DNA from: Symbiodinium natans
Lineage: Eukaryota; Sar; Dinophyceae; Suessiales; Symbiodiniaceae
Assembly: GCA_905221605.1 (NCBI GenBank)
Contig: CAJNDS010002105.1
Span: forward strand, 310,001 to 374,000
Direction of reading: 5' to 3'
DNA: 64,000 nt
In this document: one piece after another, positions 21,061-33,771 of the stretch
Layout of the letters: each line of letters begins with the position of its first letter
Numbering within the stretch: position 1 is the stretch's first letter
Made by a program: the position numbers and the translations under genes
The notes under the pieces: generated by a model
Told to the model about the DNA's origin: nothing
Database searches by the model: none
Seen by the model: the letters and a program-made list of their open reading frames with translations, nothing else

Positions 21061-21378
21061 AGCTGGGCAACGAACCGAGTGACATTTTAATCCGACGCCG
21101 AGAGCGACCTTGATGATTAGAGCTAATTCTGGAATCCAAGAACTTAAGGAAGTTTTAAAAACATCTTCTCCGTCCTACCAAGCTAAAAACGGCAGGTCGA
21201 TGGGGGGGTAGAGATATGATAAGCCCCTCAACCTGCCTCCTTTTGCCTTTGCCTCAAATTACCCAGCTATGAACGAGTAAACCTGGGTGTGCAAAATCTG
21301 CTTCTGTTAATCAGAACACTAAGCCAAACAAAGCAGAATCAGGAAAACCCAAAAAGCCCAAACAAAAAGCAAGAAACC
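21060..21378. other. Non-coding flank of the retroelement
   Basis: No exon seen. Contains an imperfect hairpin around 21190-21238 (GGCAGGT ... ACCTGCC) with a G7/C4 pair inside. Confidence 0.4.
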
Positions 21379-22016
<638 letters not shown>

Positions 22017-22501
22017 TTTTTGCATTGCACTCACTGCCAGAATCAGCATGTGGACCTCTGATCACTTTGGATCCTCGGCAAGTCGGCTACTCTGTATCCG
22101 CCTTGGGAGCTCCAGCAGTCTTTGCTAGTTTGTACTTCACGCCCCTCGGGGCTGCTGAAGATTGTTGTGCACAGCTATGTTCGAGTATGTGGAATGCATC
22201 CGCCCCTCGGGGCTGCGATAGCGCTGTGCTGGCTGGGCACCCTACGACCGCTTCCTACTGGCTCACCTGCACCCGCGACTGCAGCAGTGCCGGCTGGCCC
22301 CTATGTTGTGTTGCAGGCTATCGCTGTACGCTAGCTGAGTTTGGTGTGATTAAGGCGGGCAAGGATGATATAGAAGGTCTCACCCGCCTTTGTTATTTCA
22401 CAGTCCGGCCTTTTGGACTTCGGGAGGATCGCTTCCTCCAGATTGCCAGGTCTCACTACCTGCTATACTGAATCTGCTTTGGCAGAGTACTGAAGGATGT
22501 T

Positions 22502-22518
22502 CAGGAGGAAACCTCCTG
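22502..22518. repeat. Single hairpin CAGGAGGAAACCTCCTG
   Basis: Perfect 7-bp stem with AAA loop in the element's 3' region. The same CCTGAAGCATTGAA-like sequence follows it as follows the 22938 copy (CTGAAGCAATGAA). Confidence 0.95.
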
Positions 22519-22937
22519 ACCTGAAGCATTGAAACAAAGAAGAAATCGGAGCGGGCAGGGAGGCCGCCTCCGATATCAAGTACTCATCCCTGCAAAAGGG
22601 TGAAGAGTAAGCGCGGCTACCCCGACACCCTACTGTGAGTCACTGCGTCCAGCACCCACGCACCAGCTGTTTAGCGAGCCGTACCTCTGGTGAGGCCGAC
22701 ACTCAGCGTTCCCGTCTAGTGACGTCTCACACAGGTAACGCTAGACAACTGGCAGAGGGCCGTAGGCAGAGCTCACCATGGCGGCCTTGCCCGTTCCAAG
22801 TAGAATGCCCAAATTTGATGCAGGGGAGCTGAGCTTGCGAAGCCTGGCCTGGGACGCCTTTCGCGGCTCCTGGGGCCAGCGCTGCGACAGGGCAAAACTT
22901 CACGCCTGGTCGAGAAGATGTGGAGCTAAGGATATGC

Positions 22938-22952
22938 AGGAGGAAACCTCCT
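22938..22952. repeat. Single hairpin AGGAGGAAACCTCCT
   Basis: Perfect 6-bp stem with AAA loop, in the element's 3' region. Confidence 0.95.
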
Positions 22953-23123
22953 TATCTGAAGCAATGAATCAATAGGTTCAAGATAACGGTAAGATAGAAT
23001 TAAGAAAATTAACAAAAGTGCATGACAACTAGAGTAGATCAAGATTGCCAGCTTGCTGACTGAAAAGAGAATTAATGATTGTAGTTTGCCTGAAGCGCAA
23101 GCTGCTCACAACAGAAAGTTCCA

Positions 23124-23411
23124 TCAAGTGCGGGCATGCATGCTGGTGCCAACGAGATGATTAGCTGCAAGCAATGCTATCTTGAGAGCACTCCCTGCCT
23201 GATTGTTCAGAGCATCGGTTGACGTCAGCCAAATGCAGCCTGCATCGCGAGCGGTGTGCTCGGCATGGGGTAGGTGGATGGGATCTCCATTGTGCAACAC
23301 AGTCTCAGGCAAGATTTCTTCCTCATAGCCGCTGATGGTCACAAAAAGCCATCTGCTATTGTTGCAAGGCTGGACAAGTGATATTGCAATCCCTTGCTGG
23401 AGAAGCTCCAT
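23124..23411 (-). CDS. Retroelement ORF6, unknown 95-aa protein
   Basis: Starts at ATG 23411 and is open for 95 codons. Soluble, acidic mid-part (SGYEEEILPETVLHNGDPIH) and a C-terminal alanine/leucine stretch. No domain recognised. It is the last frame on the element's strand, 240 bp after ORF5, with a hairpin at 23464-23476 just upstream of its start. It could be a real small protein or a remnant. Confidence 0.4.
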   Translation of the reverse strand: MELLQQGIAISLVQPCNNSRWLFVTISGYEEEILPETVLHNGDPIHLPHAEHTARDAGCIWLTSTDALNNQAGSALKIALLAANHLVGTSMHART

Positions 23412-23463
23412 TGCACTTTAATGTATGAAGAAGGTCTCAAGAACATGAAATTCGAACAACGTG

Positions 23464-23476
23464 GGAGGAAGCCTCC
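23464..23476. repeat. Single hairpin GGAGGAAGCCTCC between ORF5 and ORF6
   Basis: Perfect 5-bp stem, AAG loop, 53 bp upstream of the ORF6 ATG on the minus strand. Confidence 0.95.
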
Positions 23477-23623
23477 TAATGAAAGAAATAGAGACACTAG
23501 TATCAACCTCTGTGCTAAATGGAGTTCTGCCATACTTATGCATGGTTTAGCTGAGAGTTGCACCTTCAAATGTGCCGATTTAGGTGTTGAAAAGTGTACA
23601 GGGAACCGGCAGGTGCAAGAAGG

Positions 23624-23649
23624 GGAGGAATCCTCCGGAGGTAGCCTCC
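23624..23649. repeat. Double hairpin 2 bp after ORF5 stop
   Basis: Two abutting 13-mers, GGAGGAATCCTCC (23624-23636) and GGAGGTAGCCTCC (23637-23649), with different loops (AAT, TAG) and the same stem. The stop codon of ORF5 is at 23654-23652. Confidence 0.95.
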
Positions 23650-23651
23650 AC

Positions 23652-24206
23652 TCAGACTGTGAGTCCTGCCGAAATTGTGGTCCACTGTGCGATCGCTATG
23701 TTCATTTCCGCATCCTCTGCAAAGAACTCATCACGCACCTGCCCGACCTCTTGTTGATACTGAGCGTCAAGATGCGGAGGAAGCATACTTGACGTATACC
23801 GGATAATGTGCGTCTCACGATAGAAGCTCTCGAGTTCGGTGAGGATCACGCTGTAGTACCACGTTCCTTGGGTGGTGGGAAGCTCGGTGAACCTCATCAG
23901 GCTTAAGTATCGTAGGCTGATGCTCCGCAACTTTTGGCGCCGGGACGCCTTGATTTCACGCCATTCATCATATCCGGGCAATGACTGTACTGCCCAAAGT
24001 AGTGTCTTCATCCTCTCTGCTTGGAGCACCTCATGTGCATAGTTCATGAACTGAGCGAGGATTTTCACCTTGTGAGTGTTGAAATACTCCGCAACCCTTG
24101 TGCTGGTAGTCTCGGAGGAGATGTTCTGGTCTTCTGCAACTACCTGCTGGTGCACGAGAGCAACCAGGAGCGGAGTGAGCGCTTGCACCAAGCTAGTGCT
24201 CTCCAT
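23652..24206 (-). CDS. Retroelement ORF5, unknown 184-aa protein
   Basis: Open frame starting at the first ATG (24206, MESTSLVQALTPLLVALVHQ). The N-terminal hydrophobic helix could be a membrane or signal segment. It continues with an all-helical, tyrosine-rich body (AEYFNTHKVKILAQFMNYAH, SLRYLSLMRFTELPTT, SVILTELESFYRETHIIRY) and an acidic end (VRDEFFAEDAEM). It is intact and codon-like throughout, which argues for real coding. No family recognised. A double hairpin abuts its stop codon. Confidence 0.55.
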   Translation of the reverse strand: MESTSLVQALTPLLVALVHQQVVAEDQNISSETTSTRVAEYFNTHKVKILAQFMNYAHEVLQAERMKTLLWAVQSLPGYDEWREIKASRRQKLRSISLRYLSLMRFTELPTTQGTWYYSVILTELESFYRETHIIRYTSSMLPPHLDAQYQQEVGQVRDEFFAEDAEMNIAIAQWTTISAGLTV

Positions 24207-24544
24207 TGGAAACACAGGTGTTGATGGCTGATTTCGAGGTGAGAATGGCTACTGCCAACAGAAGTGTGAATCGGTTTCTTATGGCAGGCAGGCAGTGACC
24301 ATTGCTAACAAGCATGCAAGGGCTCTAGCTGAAGGCTGCACAGCTCAGGAACTAGGAACTGCAGAAGGAAGTGCCTGCCACTGCTTGTGGACTTCGCGAC
24401 GCCAAGCTCACCTGGGCAATGTGCAGGTAGAGGGTGGGGGAACTCCTCTTATTGCATGCAAAGAGAGACAACTCGTTCAGGCTGTATCAAAGTCTTTGTT
24501 GCCTTAAGCAGAGGGCGTACATGCTGTCTACTTTAAAATGAAGT

Positions 24545-24570
24545 GGAGGAAACCTCCGGAGGAAGCCTCC
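24545..24570. repeat. Double hairpin downstream of ORF4
   Basis: GGAGGAAACCTCC at 24545-24557 directly followed by GGAGGAAGCCTCC at 24558-24570, 60 bp past the ORF4 stop. Confidence 0.95.
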
Positions 24571-24630
24571 CACTGCGAAAGTAGACCACAGCAGAACGAA
24601 TTCGGTACAGGTGAAACTGCTGAAGACGCT

Positions 24631-26628
24631 TTAGAAGGGCAGAGACTTGCCTGTGTGCCGATCTATGACAGTGCTGATGTGGGACAGGTCAATGGGTCCA
24701 CGCGTCAGCAGTACTCCATTCTTCGCCCGACGCACTTTGTGTCCACTGTCGATCAAAGACGGCAGGTGGATCCAAATCTCCACTGAGGAGTCCTCCCTGA
24801 ATCCTGCAGTTTTGGTTGGTGACAAAGACATATGTATGTCACGTCTTTGCATTCTGCGCAGCTGAGAGGAGCGAATCTGGTGCCAGGCCCGCCAGCTCGT
24901 CCCGTGGACACCCCACTCAGGTGTTGTTGAGGAGGTCAGGACCTCATGCAGTTGATCGTCTTCCAGTGGGATGTCACGACCATGGCCCTGTAAGGCTCTG
25001 ATGTAGATTTCCCCGTCTTCCTCTGAGATCATCTGCTCCATGCGGACCTTCTGTGAGGTTTCCAGTACTCGCCGTACTTCATGAACTGTCACTTCAGCCC
25101 GCCAGAATTGCCTGGAATTAAGAAGGCTCTTCAGATTGGCATAGCCAGCAGTGTCTAGCGACATGCCATACTTCGCTGGGTCATGTCTGAGAGCTTGTGT
25201 GAGGAGCTTGCCTATCATCTCTCGTCTGGTTTCGTGAGCGCCCCGTCCAGAGAGCTGATCAAGATTAACATCCAGATCTGCTAAACTCGGTGATCGCTGA
25301 GTTGCTGGCTGCCAGGCGTGCTCTCTTCTGCCTCCCTCTTGATGCTGTGGGACTTCTTGATGAAGTGGGTCCTGTAGATCTGTGCCTGCGGGATCAGCAG
25401 CTGGTGACCAGATCCCCCAGGATTCATCACTATCATCTTCGGGCTGGTGCAAGGAGGTCGGCAGAGCGCTTTGGTCAGAGGCCATTGCCTTGTTTCCTCT
25501 CCAAGGAGGAGCTGCGGCCTGCCAGGTGGAGTTAACATCATCTTGAAAGGCAGCTGATCCCTTGGCATGTTGGGAGGAGGATCTTGGTGGATTTCTGTAT
25601 GAACTCGGCTCCTCCGGTCTTTCCCTCGCAATGCGTTGAATTGGGGCAGCTTCCGCAAGGGGATTCCAGCCAGTCTGCACATAGGTCCCCAAAGGCAGTG
25701 AGTCTGTGATGTGAAGCAACAGCGCCTCGAGCTGGACGTAGTCTTCCCTGAGAATGTACTGATCCGTTGCTTTGGAGCCACGGAGAGATCCTGCAGCCTG
25801 GTCGAATGACACTGCTAATTTGGCCGCAACTGCTCGTAGAGATTTGTTGCCTTCCTTCAAGATGGGAAACCATACATGCGTCACATATGACTCCGCCTTG
25901 CGCTCATGCTTGCCGGAATGGATGTAGACTCCTGGGTAGCCCTCGAAATATTGTTCTCCTTGAGAGGAATCCCGGGACGGTTGCAGCTTTCCTAAATACA
26001 GGATCGAGTAGAGCGACTCCAATTTTGTCCCATGATAGCCCACTCTGTCATCCGTGCCGGTGCGTCTCTGAACAACATCTCTTATGGGAAAGCGCACCCA
26101 GTCTTCCTGCATGACAGGATCTCCCAACTTTGCAGTCAAATCTGAGTTGCTCGGACCTTTACGCGTTCTCAGAAATGTACGGATAAATATTTTGGCCTCC
26201 TCCATGACATCCTTAGTCGGATCCAGTTGTTCACGCTCCTTGTGACGCTTGGTCCATGCATAGCGGCTCTGGACATGAGTGCTGGTGTTCCAGTCTGATG
26301 CCTGCCCACTGGCCCTCCGATCAAAATCAGGAACCAGAAAGGAGAAGGATTCAGCTTGTTCTGGAGTTCTTTCGGAGGAAACCTCCGCGGAGGAAACCTC
26401 CGCTCTCGGCAGGAAAGTGACAGGCTGTGAGGACGGAGCTGCCTTGGCCTTCTTGCCTCCTCTGTTGTGATTCGGCTTACGCCGGGCCTGGCGCTGTGCG
26501 TCCCGCCAGCTCAGTGGTTCCTTGCCTTGTTGCTCTCGCCTTCTATTTAAAGCCTCAAATTCATCATTCGTCAAATCACGCTCCATTTTGAGGGCCTGAT
26601 CATATTGGCTTGAGAGAAGCTTCGGCAT
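24631..26628 (-). CDS. Retroelement ORF4: ART-like segment + Tpt1/KptA 2'-phosphotransferase
   Basis: 665 codons from the first ATG (26628, MPKLLSSQYDQ); earlier codons in the frame lack ATG. Residues about 471-665 match the Tpt1/KptA family (NAD-dependent RNA 2'-phosphotransferase): LTQALRHDP (R481, H482), IYIRALQGHG (R544), WGVHGTSW (H575-T577), RRDIHMSLSP (R595) and NGVLLT (about 637). By my alignment all four catalytic Arg/His positions of the family are present. Residues about 196-240 contain a second HGT (VGYHGTKLESLYSIL, then GYPGVYIHSG), a pattern seen in ADP-ribosyltransferase-fold proteins, so the protein may carry two related folds. Residues 1-75 are basic with GGKKAKAA. A Pro/Gln/Ser-rich linker separates the halves. 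Residues about 76-86 (AEVSSAEVSSE) are encoded by an in-frame double hairpin. The substrate is unknown. Confidence 0.8.
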   Translation of the reverse strand: MPKLLSSQYDQALKMERDLTNDEFEALNRRREQQGKEPLSWRDAQRQARRKPNHNRGGKKAKAAPSSQPVTFLPRAEVSSAEVSSERTPEQAESFSFLVPDFDRRASGQASDWNTSTHVQSRYAWTKRHKEREQLDPTKDVMEEAKIFIRTFLRTRKGPSNSDLTAKLGDPVMQEDWVRFPIRDVVQRRTGTDDRVGYHGTKLESLYSILYLGKLQPSRDSSQGEQYFEGYPGVYIHSGKHERKAESYVTHVWFPILKEGNKSLRAVAAKLAVSFDQAAGSLRGSKATDQYILREDYVQLEALLLHITDSLPLGTYVQTGWNPLAEAAPIQRIARERPEEPSSYRNPPRSSSQHAKGSAAFQDDVNSTWQAAAPPWRGNKAMASDQSALPTSLHQPEDDSDESWGIWSPAADPAGTDLQDPLHQEVPQHQEGGRREHAWQPATQRSPSLADLDVNLDQLSGRGAHETRREMIGKLLTQALRHDPAKYGMSLDTAGYANLKSLLNSRQFWRAEVTVHEVRRVLETSQKVRMEQMISEEDGEIYIRALQGHGRDIPLEDDQLHEVLTSSTTPEWGVHGTSWRAWHQIRSSQLRRMQRRDIHMSLSPTKTAGFREDSSVEIWIHLPSLIDSGHKVRRAKNGVLLTRGPIDLSHISTVIDRHTGKSLPF
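26373..26402. repeat. Double hairpin inside ORF4 coding sequence
   Basis: Exactly two copies of CGGAGGAAACCTCCG (15 bp each, 30 bp total), each a 6-bp stem with AAA loop. The length is a multiple of three, so ORF4 stays open and gains two AEVSS units. Confidence 0.97.
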
Positions 26629-26828
26629 TGCAATGGGCCAATGAGCGAACTTCAACCAAGCAGCTGGTGGGTGTCCCTACAGAGGAGAAGGCTATTCACA
26701 AATCCTCAAACCTGAAAGAGAACCCGGACAGGGGAGTTATCCTAGGAAGGATGGAGTGGTTGCAGCTCAGAGGGTGAGTGACTGAACTTGCTGTAATTCT
26801 GACACGCGTAGGCCGCCGACCGTAGCAT

Positions 26829-26854
26829 GGAGGAAGCCTCCGGAGGAAGCCTCC
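26829..26854. repeat. Double hairpin between ORF3 and ORF4
   Basis: Two identical abutting GGAGGAAGCCTCC units in the intergenic gap, about 200 bp upstream of the ORF4 ATG on the minus strand. Confidence 0.97.
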
Positions 26855-26986
26855 CGAGCTATGCAATGCGAGTGCGTGCATACAGGCTGGGCTATGATGC
26901 AGTGATAGCAGAGGCTTTTGACTCCCTGGTGCTGAAGACATCTCACACGAGGACTGATTAATACAGACCATCTAGGAAGCTATGTA

Positions 26987-27388
26987 CTAGTACGGATTCT
27001 GAGCAGGCCGCCGTTGTGCTCTTGGCCTCACACTGCTCGACGATGGTCCTGGTAGCATGACTCTGATGCCTTGGTAATGAAGAGTCCAGGTCAAGTAGTC
27101 CATCCGTTCAGAGAGAGCTTGGGTGTCGGACAGACGATAGAGACGCTCGATGTGAGCTCCATAGATCTGTGCACTCTGAGCGAGCTGAGTCACCTCTGCG
27201 CTCAGTTGCCGGACTTGCCCATGTAGTCTGACCTGATCCCGTTGCATTTCCTCGATGAGGTGAGCTTGAGCATCTATAAGCTTCTGGGCTTTGCTTAGCG
27301 CAGTATCCAGCTCCCAAAGTGCCACTCGATCAGCCTCCGTAAAGATCCAGCCCTCTCTGGCGTACATGCGTTCAGCTCGGTATGACAT
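26987..27388 (-). CDS. Retroelement ORF3, 133-aa coiled-coil protein
   Basis: ATG at 27388. The centre (about residues 27-75) is a heptad-type helix, with ALWELDTALSKAQKLIDAQA, LIEEMQRDQVRLHGQVRQL and SAEVTQLAQSAQIYGAHI. The C-terminus is basic and Ser/Arg/Pro-rich. Size and layout resemble small coiled-coil oligomerisation proteins such as LINE ORF1-type chaperones, but there is no RNA-binding domain I can name. It lies 183 bp after ORF2. Confidence 0.6.
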   Translation of the reverse strand: MSYRAERMYAREGWIFTEADRVALWELDTALSKAQKLIDAQAHLIEEMQRDQVRLHGQVRQLSAEVTQLAQSAQIYGAHIERLYRLSDTQALSERMDYLTWTLHYQGIRVMLPGPSSSSVRPRAQRRPAQNPY

Positions 27389-27571
27389 TGGCTCTCTACT
27401 AGCCAGCTATAGGATTGATTGCGCGAGCAAGAAAAGCTGCTGTGATAGAAGAGATACAGATGTTGCTGGGAGAGGAAGGCAAGCTGAGAGACAATTCGGC
27501 GCTTATTGAAGGCAATGCAGATTTTTTTGCCTCTATGTGAAAGGATCTTCAAGCTGAAGGTGCTCTATGAG

Positions 27572-28408
27572 CTAGCTGCTGCCGGATGCCTGCTTTGCAA
27601 GCGACTTAGCTGTTGGACTACGCTGAACGCTCCCTGGCCTTAGTGAACCTTCAATGGCTGCCCAGACTGCATTGTCCGTGAGTCCGGACAGGGCTTGATG
27701 GAACTTACCTTTGAGATGTTGGAGTTGGACCTGGATGTGAACTCGAACTGGGCCACCTGTCATCTTCTCGACGATCGGACGTGATGGCATGAGCCTGGAG
27801 ATCAACTGTGGGTGCTGCGCAAGCTCCTCCAAGCACGTTTTGAGCAATTGAACGACGTCTTCTGCGGGGACTGCCCTTCGAGCAGTGTCATGCACCGTCT
27901 TGTCTTGCTCACTGCTCCACTGCTGGTAGACAAAGGCTGGAGCTTCGGTGTCCTTCACACGTACCACCCAACCCTCTTTCTCCGCATCCGCTAGCACGTC
28001 TTCTTTAGTCTGAATCTGCTCTACTCTTTCTAAGGTCTGCTCCAAGACCAATCTCATGGCTCGAGTTCTGAATGGAGTAGACAGTTTCGAAGCGTCTTTG
28101 GACTTCTCCGCATAGATGTTCGGTAGAATGGACAGCTCACCGGTGGTCAGGTACATGACCCAGCTCAGTTCCTGCTGAAGTGTATTCAGCGAGTCCTCAT
28201 GGTTGATGGACAGCCTGGTTAGGGACTGTAGGACTTTCTCATTTGAAGCGCCCCGGCCAGTGCCCCGACCCCTACCTTTGGCTTTCTGCTTTGGCAGGTT
28301 CTTCGGTTCAGCCTGTCTGATCTTCTTGGTTGGAGAATCATCTTCATCCGGCTCATCCGCACGCTTGGATTTGGAGGGTGCTGACGATTGTGCAAAGGCC
28401 TGCCTCAT
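27572..28408 (-). CDS. Retroelement ORF2, RG-rich gag-like protein
   Basis: 278 codons from ATG 28408, only 16 bp after the stop of ORF1, which suggests coupled expression or trans-splicing of a shared precursor. The N-terminus (about residues 12-56) is highly charged, with SKSKRADEPDEDD, PTKKIRQAEPK and GRGRGTGRG, typical of nuclear import and RNA binding. The remainder is helical (LEQTLERVEQIQTKEDVLAD; VVQLLKTCLEELAQHPQ) and ends VRVHIQVQLQHLKGKFHQAL. No zinc knuckle is seen. A nucleic-acid-binding, gag/ORF1p-like role is inferred from position and composition only. Confidence 0.6.
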   Translation of the reverse strand: MRQAFAQSSAPSKSKRADEPDEDDSPTKKIRQAEPKNLPKQKAKGRGRGTGRGASNEKVLQSLTRLSINHEDSLNTLQQELSWVMYLTTGELSILPNIYAEKSKDASKLSTPFRTRAMRLVLEQTLERVEQIQTKEDVLADAEKEGWVVRVKDTEAPAFVYQQWSSEQDKTVHDTARRAVPAEDVVQLLKTCLEELAQHPQLISRLMPSRPIVEKMTGGPVRVHIQVQLQHLKGKFHQALSGLTDNAVWAAIEGSLRPGSVQRSPTAKSLAKQASGSS

Positions 28409-28424
28409 GGCTACCTAGCTGAAT

Positions 28425-31400
28425 CTATACTCGTACATAGAAGGCCAAGTAAGAACCTCGACATATTTGATCCGAGAGGAGCATGGTGCGTCTTGGCGAT
28501 TCACTATCATCAGCTAGGTACGCTACGCCCTCTCTCCAGAATCCCGCTCTGTAATGTCCAGAGTTCCAGTCTTCACCGATATGAATGATAAATGCATAGA
28601 GGCTAAAGGACACTGCTTCTGTTGAGGTTCCGTTATCTAGAAACATTGGCATCTCAAGAACTGTGTCCAGCGCTTGTGGGCGGGAAGTTTTGATTTGCTG
28701 ATCAAATCTTTGAATTTGTAAGCAAATTAGTCTTGTATCTGGAAGCAAGGCAAACACACTACCCCTGTTCGTCCATTGTGTTACTGATTGCTGAAGAGTC
28801 GAGAGTCCATCCGGCGGCTCGGGTAGATACAGAATCAAGCCACCTTTTTCCTCAACACTTATGCGTTCCTCCGGTGCTGAGATATGAACTCGCGCCTCCC
28901 ATTTATCTGAGGAAAGATCCGGGATCCGCTGAGAGATATGCAACAGAAATTGAGATGCGTCCTCCTGCCTGGGTCGTAATCGCCATCCTGCTAGCAGCGG
29001 ACGAAGATGTCGCAACCTCCGAACATCCGCATGAGAGGATCTGCCATTCAGGGAACCTATTTCCGTTAGGATGGAATTTAAGGAAGGATCTGGGAACAGT
29101 CCGTCTGACAAGAGAGAGAGAAGGATATGAACGACCGTGTGTGCATAGCACAGTTGATGCGGATTATGATAAGCTAGACGCCAGGCAGCGTCTTGCATGG
29201 AAGCTGTGGGAGATGCAGTGGTTGAACGACCCGAGACGCGTGCAGTGTATGTCAGCGAAATAGCTCGGCTGCTGGAGGAAGCCTCCTGGGAGGAAGCCTC
29301 CCTGCCTCTCACCTGGCCAATTGGAGGATCCGCACTAAAGAGATCTGGCAGTTCCATAGGATTGGCACAAGCTGCACTCATGGCGTATGTCTGAAGCAGA
29401 ACCACACATTGCTCTGCATGGCGAACTGGAGCATCTACCACAATGCGACAGTACCTACATTCTTCTTTTTTGTGCAGGAGGCGCTTATGCGTTCGCATGT
29501 TGGCAAGAATGGATGCCGAAGATTGTGCCCAGAAAGCAGGATGGGCTTTCTGAATGTGCTGTTTCACTCCTTTGTGGCCAACAATGTATTGCCCACAGAG
29601 ACTGCAGTTCGTTAATAGATGCTGAGTGACATGTCTCTTTTTTAGTAGAAGATCAGGATCCTTCTTAAGTTGTTCCTGCACGCTAGACTGATAGATCATG
29701 GCTATGCTTTCTGAGCTAGTACAGGATTTGGCTCGTTCTTTCAGCTCGTGCAGCTGAGGGCAAATGCCTGACTCCACATGTCTGCGAAGTTGATGCATTG
29801 TGCGCAACTGCCTGTTGCATGCCGCACATTGCGGAAGTCCTTTGCAGCTATGCACAGTGACCTGAAATTTTGGGCCTAGCTGATTCGCACGCTGTCCTCC
29901 ATGCTTCACCAGAGTATGTTGCTGAAGACCCTTAGCGCTGGAGAATTGCCGATCGCACAGAGAGCACGATACCGCCTGATCTGCCTCAGTCAAGTCTAAA
30001 TGCATGCTTTGAAGCTCCAGTTGCAGCGCAACAATCCTACCTCTAAGTCCCAGATGCCACTGTCTGTTCTGATCCGGGTTGGACTTCTGAAAGGCATCTA
30101 GTGCGTCTTGATAGTTTTTCATCTGGCTGATCAAAACTGCTTGAGGAGATTGAACCTTGTATTGCTCGAACAGAGTCTTCGTGTCAATATGGCTGTAGTG
30201 CTGATGTTGCTTAAAGATGGATCTTAGCATCCTAGAGTATTTACTCTGAAGCTTCTGAAGACCTGATGAGGTGACGCCAGTGGCCACAAGCCCATGCAAG
30301 AGTGAGGATTCCACATAGACCCTCCAGATCTCCAACTTCTTTGAAGCCTCCAAGGCCTTAGTGGAGCAAAGGATGTGTCGAAGTAGCTCAAACTTGCCTT
30401 GAGCTTGGGCGATCCTATAGTCAACAGTCTGGTCTTTGTAGGATCCATAGCTGAGCTGCACCCCTAGATATGTCAGTTTGTGATGAATCGGAATCTTATG
30501 TCCTGAGGGAAGGACGATGTGCAACTGCTTCTCTTTGCGCATCGTGTGCTTTTTGCGAAAGATGGACTGCTGAGTGCCCTGAACCATTAGCAAGGCTTTG
30601 GACTTCGCTGGATTGACTTCCAGCCCCACGTCCTCAAGAGACTGAAAGAGAGCCTCTATTCTGTGCAGGACTTTCTGAAGCTCAGGAAAGCTCGAGAAGG
30701 TTTCCTGGAGCAGGAAATCGTCTGCAAAGACCGTTAGGATTTCCCTAGCTTGCTTGCTATCTGGGCCCCATTTCTGCTCCATTCTGCTCATAACTAGAAG
30801 TGTCAGCGCAGACCACAATGCCGGGGCTAGCTTACAACCTTGTTTGATTCCTGAAGAAGTGGGAACTTGAATCTCTAGTCCACCTGTGCCCATGTTGTAG
30901 GAGGTCTCACTGTGTAGTTGAACTACCAGTTCTTTCGTAACAGGGTCTGTTCCCAGGCGATCCAAGGCAGCTAGCAGCTCATGTCTATTAACAGAATCAA
31001 AAGCTTTGCTCAGATCAACCGAAATAGTGAGTGCCCCTGACAGCTGAGCCTGCCTAGCTCCACGTTGGGACTTGTGCAGGTCCCTGCGATGCTCTTGCCG
31101 GAGCTGCTGCGCGAAATCAAGGTGCTGACATGCTTTCGCGATAGCGTCCCGCACCCCCCTCTGCCGAATGTACGCAAATTGAGGCTGAAGCTGTGAGCTC
31201 ACCTGCAATGCTGGTGCAATGCGAGTCTTCACTGCGCCTGCTAGCACTTTGCCTGGCACGCTGATGACTCCTATGGGCCTCAAGTTTTTCATGGCAGTGG
31301 CTGGCTTGCCCGGCTTGGGGATCCATGCAATTCGAGGATCCTTTAGATAAGGGGAAATTTCTGATTGGGACACCTCAGAGTTGATTAGACCTGCTATTTG

Positions 31401-33245
31401 TTCGTGGGCGTCAGGACCTAGACTCTTCCAAGCTGATACTGGGGCTGAGGTGCTAGGGACTGCTTTCCCCACTGGCACTGTCTTGATTTGCGAGGATACC
31501 TGCAAGGCGGTGATTGCTTTTCTGGGCACAGCGGCAACTGAGTGCAAAGGAGGACTTTTGGAGAAGATTTTACTCGAGTATTCGCGCATAGTTTTTAGCG
31601 AGGCTTCCGTATCAAGCGGCTCACCTGCTTGATCCCTTAGGTTGACTCTCTGCACTGGGCGCCACGGAGCAAGTTTCCTGAGAGCATGAGCTAGTTTGTG
31701 GGATTGTTGCCGTTTATCTTCCTGGGCTTGTAGAAGCAACTGCTCTTGCTTCTCTAGCTTTCTTTGTTTTTGCTGTTTTTTGAAAGCCCGCGCCTCCTCT
31801 TTGATGTCCTCCACAAGCTTCTGGCAGTCTGGATTATGCTCGGTTCCAGCCCGCTTGTGCGCCTGGATTTGCCGCACTTTCTTCCAATATTCCTGATGAA
31901 TGGGACCTGCTGCTGGCTGAGACTTGCGTGGAGGAGGATAGTGCTCAGCTGATACACGAACCATCACTTCATCCAGTTCTTGCCAAGACGGTCTCTCTTG
32001 CATTGTCCTCACCACTGATTCAGTCAGACGATGTGAGTATGCAAGCCAGTTGTCATCTTTCCGCCGAAAGCTCGCATCCAGGGCTGTGGCATCAAACGGC
32101 CGTGGCTTGCTGGGTATAGGACTGTAAGGAGGAATGAACAGAGTAGCCCGCACTGGAAGATGTTTTGGTCCATCTCTGTAGGCAGCCACAGGAAAGTTCT
32201 TATCAGAGTAGGCCTCCTTGGATCTCCTCCGAGCATCGTGCAGTCTGACCAGCATAAAATCGATCTGAGAGGAATATGTGCCATCACTGTTAGTATACGT
32301 GCTGCGATGGCCAGAAGCCCATGTGTTCAGCGCAGTGAGTCCACAGGATTTGCAGAGCGAGGGCAGTGTCTTCACATCCGCATTTGCAAACCGTACTCGA
32401 TGAGGCACACTTGGTCCAATATGAGGACGTTCAGTCACCGCATGCGCATTGAAATCCCCAGCCACAATCAAGAAATCACGTTGCGGGACTCTCTGTATAC
32501 GATTTTCGAGCTGTGTCATCACGTCCTTTCTCCTGCCTCTGTTTTCCGTCTTCGAAAGCTTTGAATCCCAGACGTGCTGGTACAGGTTCAGGAGATGTAT
32601 TCTGGATCTCTGCCACGGGATCATGACGTGCTGCAAATGCCCTGGAACAATGGAAGTGCTGCGAATTTCTGAAAGAGGAGCCAATGAGCTATGCACCAAG
32701 ACAACCAGGCCAGCCTTGTGTCTGCTTGTTGAGCCACAGGTTAAGACTGACCACGGGCCTGAGCTGTAGACCTGGTCCTGCTGCCAATGCGATTCCTGCA
32801 GGAAAACGATTTTGATGTTCTTGTACTCTGTTGTTGCCAAAAGGGCCAGAATCTCGTTCCAAACTCGGCTTGTAATTGAGCCTGCGTTCCAAGTAAGGAC
32901 TTCCATGTCAAATTTGTGATGGATCTGTCTGCTCGGTTGAAAAGAACGCCTCTCCGCTTTCGCAGGAGACGCGAATTGTCCTTCGTGAGCTCCTAGAGCC
33001 TGAGCTGTCAGAAGACGGCCTTTATAAAGTGCTGCTCCCTTCGCCAGGGCAACTTTACAAGCTCTTTGGTAGCTTCGCTTGCCGGTTTTGTTCATGGTTA
33101 GCTGACTTCGCTGCGCATGCTGCTCAGCTTCATCGGGGGGCGCTACTTCCCGAAACCCTCGATTCTGATCCATGGCTGGACCCTGGGACTTGGGACCCAG
33201 GCACCCAAGAAAGCTCGCTACGGCTACGAGAAATAAAATCCTCAT
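28425..33245 (-). CDS. Retroelement ORF1: AP endonuclease-RT-zinc fingers-USP fusion
   Basis: 1606 codons from ATG 33245 (MRILFLVAVASF, a signal-like start; MDQNRGFRE shortly after is an alternative). The frame is open further upstream only because (GTT)n has no stops. Endonuclease, residues about 114-350: LTWNAGS, LQESHW, VAGDFNAH, QIDFML. Reverse transcriptase, about 620-960: WIPKPGK, LRPIGVIS, SVDLSKAFDSVNR, SGIKQGC and FADDF (about 840). Four Cys/His fingers, about 1093-1275 (CSLCDRQF..H..H; CAACNRQL; CSLCGQYI; CRYCRIVV). C-terminal USP (C19) domain, about 1350-1606: QLCYAHT with Cys1366, RQEDASQFLLHI (the usual QxDAxEFL), LQIQRF, SGHYRAGF with His1564, then LADDSES and a final YLAFYVRV. 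This supports a non-LTR retrotransposon polyprotein carrying a probably active deubiquitinase-like domain. Confidence 0.9.
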   Translation of the reverse strand: MRILFLVAVASFLGCLGPKSQGPAMDQNRGFREVAPPDEAEQHAQRSQLTMNKTGKRSYQRACKVALAKGAALYKGRLLTAQALGAHEGQFASPAKAERRSFQPSRQIHHKFDMEVLTWNAGSITSRVWNEILALLATTEYKNIKIVFLQESHWQQDQVYSSGPWSVLTCGSTSRHKAGLVVLVHSSLAPLSEIRSTSIVPGHLQHVMIPWQRSRIHLLNLYQHVWDSKLSKTENRGRRKDVMTQLENRIQRVPQRDFLIVAGDFNAHAVTERPHIGPSVPHRVRFANADVKTLPSLCKSCGLTALNTWASGHRSTYTNSDGTYSSQIDFMLVRLHDARRRSKEAYSDKNFPVAAYRDGPKHLPVRATLFIPPYSPIPSKPRPFDATALDASFRRKDDNWLAYSHRLTESVVRTMQERPSWQELDEVMVRVSAEHYPPPRKSQPAAGPIHQEYWKKVRQIQAHKRAGTEHNPDCQKLVEDIKEEARAFKKQQKQRKLEKQEQLLLQAQEDKRQQSHKLAHALRKLAPWRPVQRVNLRDQAGEPLDTEASLKTMREYSSKIFSKSPPLHSVAAVPRKAITALQVSSQIKTVPVGKAVPSTSAPVSAWKSLGPDAHEQIAGLINSEVSQSEISPYLKDPRIAWIPKPGKPATAMKNLRPIGVISVPGKVLAGAVKTRIAPALQVSSQLQPQFAYIRQRGVRDAIAKACQHLDFAQQLRQEHRRDLHKSQRGARQAQLSGALTISVDLSKAFDSVNRHELLAALDRLGTDPVTKELVVQLHSETSYNMGTGGLEIQVPTSSGIKQGCKLAPALWSALTLLVMSRMEQKWGPDSKQAREILTVFADDFLLQETFSSFPELQKVLHRIEALFQSLEDVGLEVNPAKSKALLMVQGTQQSIFRKKHTMRKEKQLHIVLPSGHKIPIHHKLTYLGVQLSYGSYKDQTVDYRIAQAQGKFELLRHILCSTKALEASKKLEIWRVYVESSLLHGLVATGVTSSGLQKLQSKYSRMLRSIFKQHQHYSHIDTKTLFEQYKVQSPQAVLISQMKNYQDALDAFQKSNPDQNRQWHLGLRGRIVALQLELQSMHLDLTEADQAVSCSLCDRQFSSAKGLQQHTLVKHGGQRANQLGPKFQVTVHSCKGLPQCAACNRQLRTMHQLRRHVESGICPQLHELKERAKSCTSSESIAMIYQSSVQEQLKKDPDLLLKKRHVTQHLLTNCSLCGQYIVGHKGVKQHIQKAHPAFWAQSSASILANMRTHKRLLHKKEECRYCRIVVDAPVRHAEQCVVLLQTYAMSAACANPMELPDLFSADPPIGQVRGREASSQEASSSSRAISLTYTARVSGRSTTASPTASMQDAAWRLAYHNPHQLCYAHTVVHILLSLLSDGLFPDPSLNSILTEIGSLNGRSSHADVRRLRHLRPLLAGWRLRPRQEDASQFLLHISQRIPDLSSDKWEARVHISAPEERISVEEKGGLILYLPEPPDGLSTLQQSVTQWTNRGSVFALLPDTRLICLQIQRFDQQIKTSRPQALDTVLEMPMFLDNGTSTEAVSFSLYAFIIHIGEDWNSGHYRAGFWREGVAYLADDSESPRRTMLLSDQICRGSYLAFYVRV
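29274..29301. repeat. Double hairpin inside ORF1 (finger-USP linker)
   Basis: GGAGGAAGCCTCC at 29274-29286 and again at 29289-29301, separated by TG. It encodes Glu/Ala/Ser-rich residues (REASSQEASS) in the linker just before the USP domain. Confidence 0.95.
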
Positions 33246-33261
33246 CTTGGGCCAGAATCTT

Positions 33262-33771
<510 letters not shown>

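Follow-up and report, generated by a model that had tools for sequence, protein, structure and literature searches.

A LINE-type retrotransposon of Symbiodinium natans with a complete Tpt1/KptA domain and a conserved ART-like domain in one ORF

The window analysed here, a 64-kb stretch of the Symbiodinium natans genome, contains what is almost certainly an 11.2-kb LINE-type retrotransposon in which an ORF with an ART-like domain and a complete Tpt1 domain lies downstream of the endonuclease-reverse transcriptase (EN-RT) ORF. Enzymes of the Tpt1 family use NAD+ to remove 2'-phosphates from RNA, and the sequence of the element's protein makes it probable that it performs this chemistry too. The likeliest reading is that the protein uses NAD+ to repair or protect the RNA of the element itself. 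Here the chemistry is taken from the family and the role is our suggestion, which we hold tentatively and at somewhat less than even odds. For the explanation as a whole, i.e. this anatomy, Tpt1 chemistry and action on phosphates of RNA in the ribonucleoprotein (RNP) of the element itself, we would put the probability at about 0.45.

The element, its termini and its copies

The element is read on the minus strand; its parts, in window coordinates and in sense order, are the following:

33262..33770, no strand: (CAA)n flank on the 5' side of the element
22017..33261, minus (sense): the whole element, 11,245 bp, a LINE-type (non-LTR) retrotransposon; BLAST matches of the copies run from base 1 to 11244/11245 where the ends are reached
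33246..33258, minus: 5'-terminal DinoSL-like 13-mer (11/13 matches), immediately followed by the first ATG
28425..33245, minus: 1606-aa EN-RT ORF with an APE-type endonuclease (about 32205-32897), a reverse transcriptase (about 30453-31322), a C2H2 zinc finger and a USP-like C-terminus (Pfam RVT_1 5.8e-23, Exo_endo_phos 2.2e-6, zf-C2H2_jaz 3.5e-6)
28428..29192, minus: USP/UCH-like cysteine protease segment that closes the EN-RT ORF (PF00443 E 1.2e-4, 22.2 bits, just below the cut-off of 23.9, when the segment is scanned alone)
27572..28408, minus: 278-aa ORF with a basic N-terminus, no Pfam hit, dN/dS 0.185
26987..27388, minus: 133-aa ORF, no Pfam hit above cut-off, dN/dS 0.370
24631..26586, minus: 651-aa ORF with ART-like domain, variable linker and Tpt1/KptA domain
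23652..24215, minus: 187-aa ORF, no Pfam hit above cut-off, dN/dS 0.228
22504..29301, no strand: region containing all 12 of the window's short hairpins GGAGGAANCCTCC, which frequently come in pairs, inside ORFs or between them
21378..22016, no strand: (CAA)n flank on the 3' side of the element; the two flanks are the only CAA/TTG arrays in the window

The gene order is thus EN-RT, 278 aa, 133 aa, the Tpt1 protein and 187 aa, the first ORF beginning 17 nt into the element. Endonuclease and reverse transcriptase stand in a single ORF and both score above the Pfam cut-off, which was taken as the mark of a LINE; in a self-BLAST of the window with the low-complexity filter on, no repeat pair joins the two ends of the element, i.e. 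there are no long terminal repeats. Pfam gave no hit to a DNA methylase among the five ORFs. Rfam, run over 21900-33400, returned two matches, both scoring far under the gathering threshold, and no ribozyme, and scans of viral and genome contigs found no relatives. A looser hairpin pattern, GGAGGNNNCCTCC, occurs 5-8 times per locus in 13 copy loci and 0 times in 10 other loci.

Ten further copies were fetched in 20 stretches, and 11 more without their 3' flanks. Junctions were read in the first-fetched ten, and only where the BLAST match got to the end of the element. At the 5' end, seven of eight junctions begin at the identical base, with AAGATTCTGGCCCAAG ahead of the ATG, while one copy (L009) lacks the first 23 nt. 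At the 3' end, eight of nine terminate in GCAAAAA, the ninth (L010) having one A fewer, and the sequence that follows is TGTTG in eight cases and TGTCG in one. At three loci, all containing runs of N, the match does not reach the element's 3' end. The last 150 bases of eight upstream flanks contain 14-47 TTG each. Since two of the 3' junctions fall inside other copies of the element, the site preference is for TGTTG-like sequence and not strictly for microsatellites. An exact 12-bp target-site duplication was found in L023/L024, and L009/L010 have about 80 nt of near-identical sequence; at L011, at L027 and in the window pure repeat lies at the ends, so that duplication cannot be judged there.

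The copies have common boundaries, which means that the Tpt1 ORF moves with the element; the retroelement context proposed in the first-pass annotation is thereby upheld. A reverse transcriptase ahead of accessory ORFs is an unusual order for a two-ORF LINE and might hint that the Tpt1 ORF is a host gene, or a chance insertion, next to a LINE. However, independent copies have the Tpt1 ORF between identical termini, together with four other common ORFs, so that this explanation is refuted for this family and scarcely credible.

The DinoSL-like 5' terminus suggests that the template is, or in the past was, a trans-spliced mRNA. Two further hits of this kind to the 13-mer occur in the 64-kb window. 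The 21-base dinoflagellate spliced leader, in the form given in PMC7245778, has 205 exact sites in the genome (759 Mb in 2543 contigs searched), against 0 for a reversed control, which marks the host as a dinoflagellate.

Near-full tblastn matches at 31 loci are free of stops in 8/8, 18/18, 20/21, 21/21 and 10/10 cases for the five ORFs in sense order, counts which overstate the proportion of intact frames, because the copies were picked for a full-length Tpt1 and frameshifted or N-cut copies give no near-full match. Among 21 loci reaching over the 5' half, 13 have no near-full EN-RT match; seven of these contain N and the rest are rearranged or otherwise interrupted. Selection was assessed by pooled pairwise dN/dS of the Nei-Gojobori type, calculated without a tree or standard errors, on 22 copies of the Tpt1 ORF and 9 of the EN-RT ORF, the window included. 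Within the EN-RT ORF the values are 0.091 for the endonuclease, 0.096 for the reverse transcriptase and 0.060 for the USP-like segment. Within the 651-aa ORF, the ART-like domain (residues 178-310) gives 0.075, the Tpt1 domain (454-640) 0.236 and the linker between them (320-450), which serves as an internal control, 0.690, a contrast that should be little affected by the picking of intact copies. Both domains are thus under purifying selection across copies. A protein search, in which the best 8000 candidates were scored, yielded at least seven clusters for 59 sequences of this element's Tpt1-ORF family.

Capture of DNA methyltransferases (DNMT) by dinoflagellate retroelements is already known, as is the presence of KptA in phages and a few viruses (PMC5890265, PMC9503650). 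SymbioLINE-Dnmt and SymbioDIRS-Dnmt3 are Symbiodinium retrotransposons of the LINE and DIRS types with a captured DNA methyltransferase under purifying selection, according to the available part of PMC5890265, and the present element is like them a dinoflagellate retroelement with a nucleic-acid enzyme so acquired and so maintained. It differs from SymbioLINE-Dnmt in that the enzyme is Tpt1 and not a DNMT, is encoded downstream and not upstream of the RT ORF, and is accompanied by five ORFs in all and a USP-like segment. The Utopia/NeSL non-LTR retrotransposons, as presented in the accessible text of PMC4640811, are also LINEs with a cysteine-protease accessory domain, and relatives of theirs target repeats such as (TG)n; here, in contrast, the endonuclease is of the APE type, the protease segment is USP-like instead of Ulp1-like, and Tpt1 is present in addition. 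Among the titles and abstracts listed in searches of open-licence papers, none reports Tpt1 in a retrotransposon. By word search, "retrotransposon" is absent from the available portion of PMC9503650, and "phosphotransferase" and "Tpt1" are both absent from that of a paper on retrotransposon accessory domains.

Two conserved domains in one protein

A minus-strand frame is open over 24631-26655. The first-pass annotation had started the protein at the ATG at 26628, which now appears unlikely. Among the 22 genomic matches that span residues 1-650/651, 19 have frames of just 653-656 aa (two have 704 and the window's own has 681), so that the start is placed at the Met at 26586, which opens the sequence MERDL; the same MERDL start is found in six of seven protein-database clusters, the seventh (P0003) starting later. 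Residues are numbered from this Met, and the first-pass numbers are larger by 14. The subdivisions of the protein, in sense order, are:

25657..26055, minus: ART-like domain, residues 178-310, with H185-G186-T187, Y221, Y234 and Q276; relatives P0008 and L044
25237..25629, minus: variable linker, residues 320-450
24667..25227, minus: Tpt1/KptA domain, residues 454-640, tetrad R467-H468-R515-R581 and HGT at 561-563

The C-terminal Tpt1 assignment is borne out by a PF01885 match that scores 133.7 bits (cut-off 26; E 9.2e-39) and extends from position 2 to the last position, 177, of the profile, and Tpt1s of solved structure match the ORF at up to E 5e-17. The Arg-His-Arg-Arg tetrad was located by alignments, the motif positions being those of PMC6333775. 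Three of the four catalytic residues originally proposed, R481, H482 and R595, were correctly identified (R467, H468 and R581 here). The fourth, R544 (R530 here), was not: the third tetrad arginine is R515 (R529 in the first-pass numbering), which lies in the K-x-R motif. All four tetrad residues, as well as H561-G562-T563, the HGT motif of the NAD+ lobe, are invariant in 22/22 full-length copies compared. Thus a Tpt1 profile hit exists and the copy family has not lost the tetrad, the copies having been chosen as full-length matches. The protein resembles known Tpt1/KptA (PF01885; the accessible part of PMC6333775) in its whole-profile match, tetrad, K-x-R and HGT; it differs from them in bearing an N-terminal ART-like domain, joined through a fast-changing linker, and in being encoded by a retrotransposon.

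AlphaFold2 gave a mean pLDDT of 33.8 for the whole protein on a shallow alignment of 8 rows, and the Tpt1 domain, which is certain by profile, was likewise unmodelled. The sole confident part of that model is residues 1-36 or so (26479-26586, minus strand), predicted to be helix-turn-helix-like.

The HGT motif that had been pointed out at 199-201 is present (185-187 here). It belongs to a second domain which is a real conserved unit: H185, G186, T187, Y221, Y234 and Q276 are invariant in 22/22 copies, and its dN/dS is lower than Tpt1's own. When residues 165-345 of the 674-aa frame were used as query, the seven clusters came up again, together with a distant relative, P0008 (E 1.8e-6). This 1146-aa protein has the ART-like domain (33% identity, E 3e-14) followed by PF01885 at its C-terminus (E 2.6e-13), the order of domains in the element's ORF, and in our alignment it is without the tetrad histidine. 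A genome search brought up another relative on contig C1101 (35%, E 3.1e-28), read as L044. There (C1101:540400-543500), the ART-like relative is followed on the same strand by a LINE endonuclease (L049, PF03372 E 5.7e-11) in what is a separate element. An H, a G, GVY, a Y and a Q are common to the element's domain, P0008 and L044, with H185, Y221, Y234 and Q276 among them. We take the H185/Y/Q276 pattern to resemble the H-Y-E of PARP-like enzymes, with Q where PARPs have E. The suggestion of a second ART-fold domain beside Tpt1 stands for a conserved, HGT-bearing domain and fails for a match to a known ART profile: Pfam gives no hit for it at E up to 10, and a PDB profile search gave chance-level hits to other proteins only. 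AlphaFold2, run on 225 aa with 6 alignment rows, reached a mean pLDDT of 32.9, a value which, with the Tpt1 domain unmodelled as well, carries no weight either way. The domain is accordingly described as a candidate ADP-ribosyltransferase, on the basis of its motifs.

One protein with two candidate NAD+-using domains could also be thought to cap ends. The Tpt1 and/or ART-like domain would then ADP-ribosylate 5'-phosphates of element RNA, cDNA or nicked target DNA against exonucleases, and 2'-phosphate removal would be incidental. Human TRPT1 does ADP-ribosylate 5'-monophosphate RNA, and such caps shield it from XRN1, but ADP-ribose-capped mRNA is untranslated (available part of PMC9458441). 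Moreover, none of 22 copies has lost any residue of the tetrad, which 2'-phosphate chemistry requires in full. We consider end capping the main rival, and unlikely.

Tpt1/KptA elsewhere in the genome

The element is not the only repeat with a Tpt1. A genome search with L043 gave at least 94 matches, in which we distinguish, besides scattered others, a family B with at least 11 near-full places at 94-100%, a family C with at least 19 places of like range at 31-33% identity, its grouping being our own reading, and a family D with at least three places at 41%; one copy of each was read. The tetrad is present in all three of these read members. In the family C copy (L050, C1549:5900-8400), Tpt1 (PF01885 E 2.4e-33) has HAT in place of HGT and runs in frame into an endonuclease-like segment that scores below cut-off (PF03372, 0.011) and is cut by the end of the stretch. 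A 3125-aa frame recurs in four family C places, one of which, read over 2.5 kb, is without N. The very long open frames of the genome (up to 4767 aa) are not taken at face value, since L046 consists of 3737 N in 4000 and the 2399-aa frame at C2202 is thus N-inflated; other long frames may be too.

Two of the 11 near-full family B copies have an RT-like match on the KptA strand, some 4.05 kb upstream of that domain: it is open in C538 and has three stops in C521. The RT-like match of C946, with one stop, is 9.2 kb upstream, and a different RT ORF intervenes. The other eight have no RT-like match close by among the matches listed (best 93 of 617 candidates scored). The RT-like ORF gives RVT_1 at E 0.028, below cut-off, and presumably has a resemblance to RNase H; it hints weakly that family B is DIRS-like. 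The flank of family D was read as N.

Two further loci, L040 and L041, are likely host Tpt1 genes (PF01885 E 1.9e-46 and 2.6e-27, respectively); the L040 frame is without the Arg-His pair, which is perhaps on another exon. The Tpt1 domain of the window is 36% identical to that of L040 and 26-28% identical to three phage KptAs. A protein search with the Tpt1 domain alone gave nothing at E 0.001, and the KptA tree consequently comprises just ten sequences. Its nodes among host and element KptAs have support values of 17-49; the phage group alone, at 98, is well supported, so that the branching points to no favoured answer on the origin of the element KptAs or on the number of captures.

KptA on a mobile or viral genome has a precedent in jumbo phages and a few eukaryotic viruses, where it is tied to RNA repair (accessible text of PMC9503650); ours stands apart in being on a eukaryotic retrotransposon and in that identity over the domain is 25-31% between the element families and the three phage KptAs. 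Such a precedent invites the thought that the protein counters a defence or manipulates the host, reversing or mimicking a host NAD+/ADP-ribose or RNA-cleavage response (e.g. by repair of cleaved tRNA, as proposed for jumbo-phage KptA), rather than acting on element RNA. In its favour, 91 phage records have a tblastn match, every one below 60% identity, and the USP-like segment is possibly host-directed. Nevertheless, Pfam finds no RNA ligase domain among the five ORFs. We know of no defence of this kind in dinoflagellates. This explanation is rather unlikely, and slightly more so than capping.

A structural part comparable to that of ORF1p, in which the protein would be mainly an RNA-binding partner of the reverse transcriptase and its enzyme folds would be kept for binding and not for catalysis, is improbable. 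It would agree with the failure of Pfam to recognise a classical ORF1 protein among the smaller ORFs, and with the missing tetrad histidine of P0008; it is at odds with a tetrad and an HGT that are invariant in every copy compared, and with the tetrads of families B, C and D.

A possible RNA-repair step in retrotransposition

The reading that we prefer, in which the RNA of the element is repaired or protected, supposes that the protein acts on RNA phosphates within the element's RNP. The 2'-phosphates left by Trl1-type religation of cleaved element RNA would be stripped or, alternatively, exposed 5'-phosphates would be capped, and a stable full-length template would reach reverse transcription; the ART-like domain may bind or use NAD+ or ADP-ribose beside Tpt1. 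In yeast without Tpt1, mRNA that has been ligated and still bears the 2'-phosphate is cleaved and degraded (PMC6456296), which is why 2'-phosphate removal could preserve a religated template; the part of that paper at hand does not show that a 2'-phosphate blocks a reverse transcriptase. Several observations count for this reading: the Tpt1 profile match and tetrad, the boundaries common to the copies, the low dN/dS of both domains beside that of the linker, the like order of the two domains in P0008, and the KptA domains that further repeat families of the genome carry, one of them in frame ahead of an endonuclease-like segment. Against it count the dN/dS of Tpt1, higher than that of the endonuclease or the reverse transcriptase, the loss of the tetrad histidine in P0008 and the HAT of family C.

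A broader proposition, which we regard as doubtful, is that dinoflagellate retrotransposition includes a step of NAD+-dependent RNA repair, that several retroelement architectures of one genome acquired Tpt1 and that clearing phosphate or ADP-ribose from template RNA is a general need. The architectures concerned would be a five-ORF LINE with Tpt1 downstream of the RT, a second LINE family with Tpt1 in frame before the endonuclease and, probably, a DIRS-like family, the new ART-like domain being found in the first and also beside the endonuclease of another LINE.

No substrate of Tpt1 has been settled on outside the fungi, and neither E. coli nor the mouse shows a phenotype when the enzyme is lost (available part of PMC6333775). 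A Tpt1 kept by selection on a retrotransposon implies that some phosphate-bearing RNA matters to the element, and because it is so kept, the substrate question becomes testable on one defined RNA. With its many copies, the element is also a system for studying a new candidate ART family. RNA repair would join DNA methyltransferase among the enzymes acquired by dinoflagellate retroelements, and the finding suggests that the way in which such elements copy themselves may include the repair of RNA or the protection of its ends.
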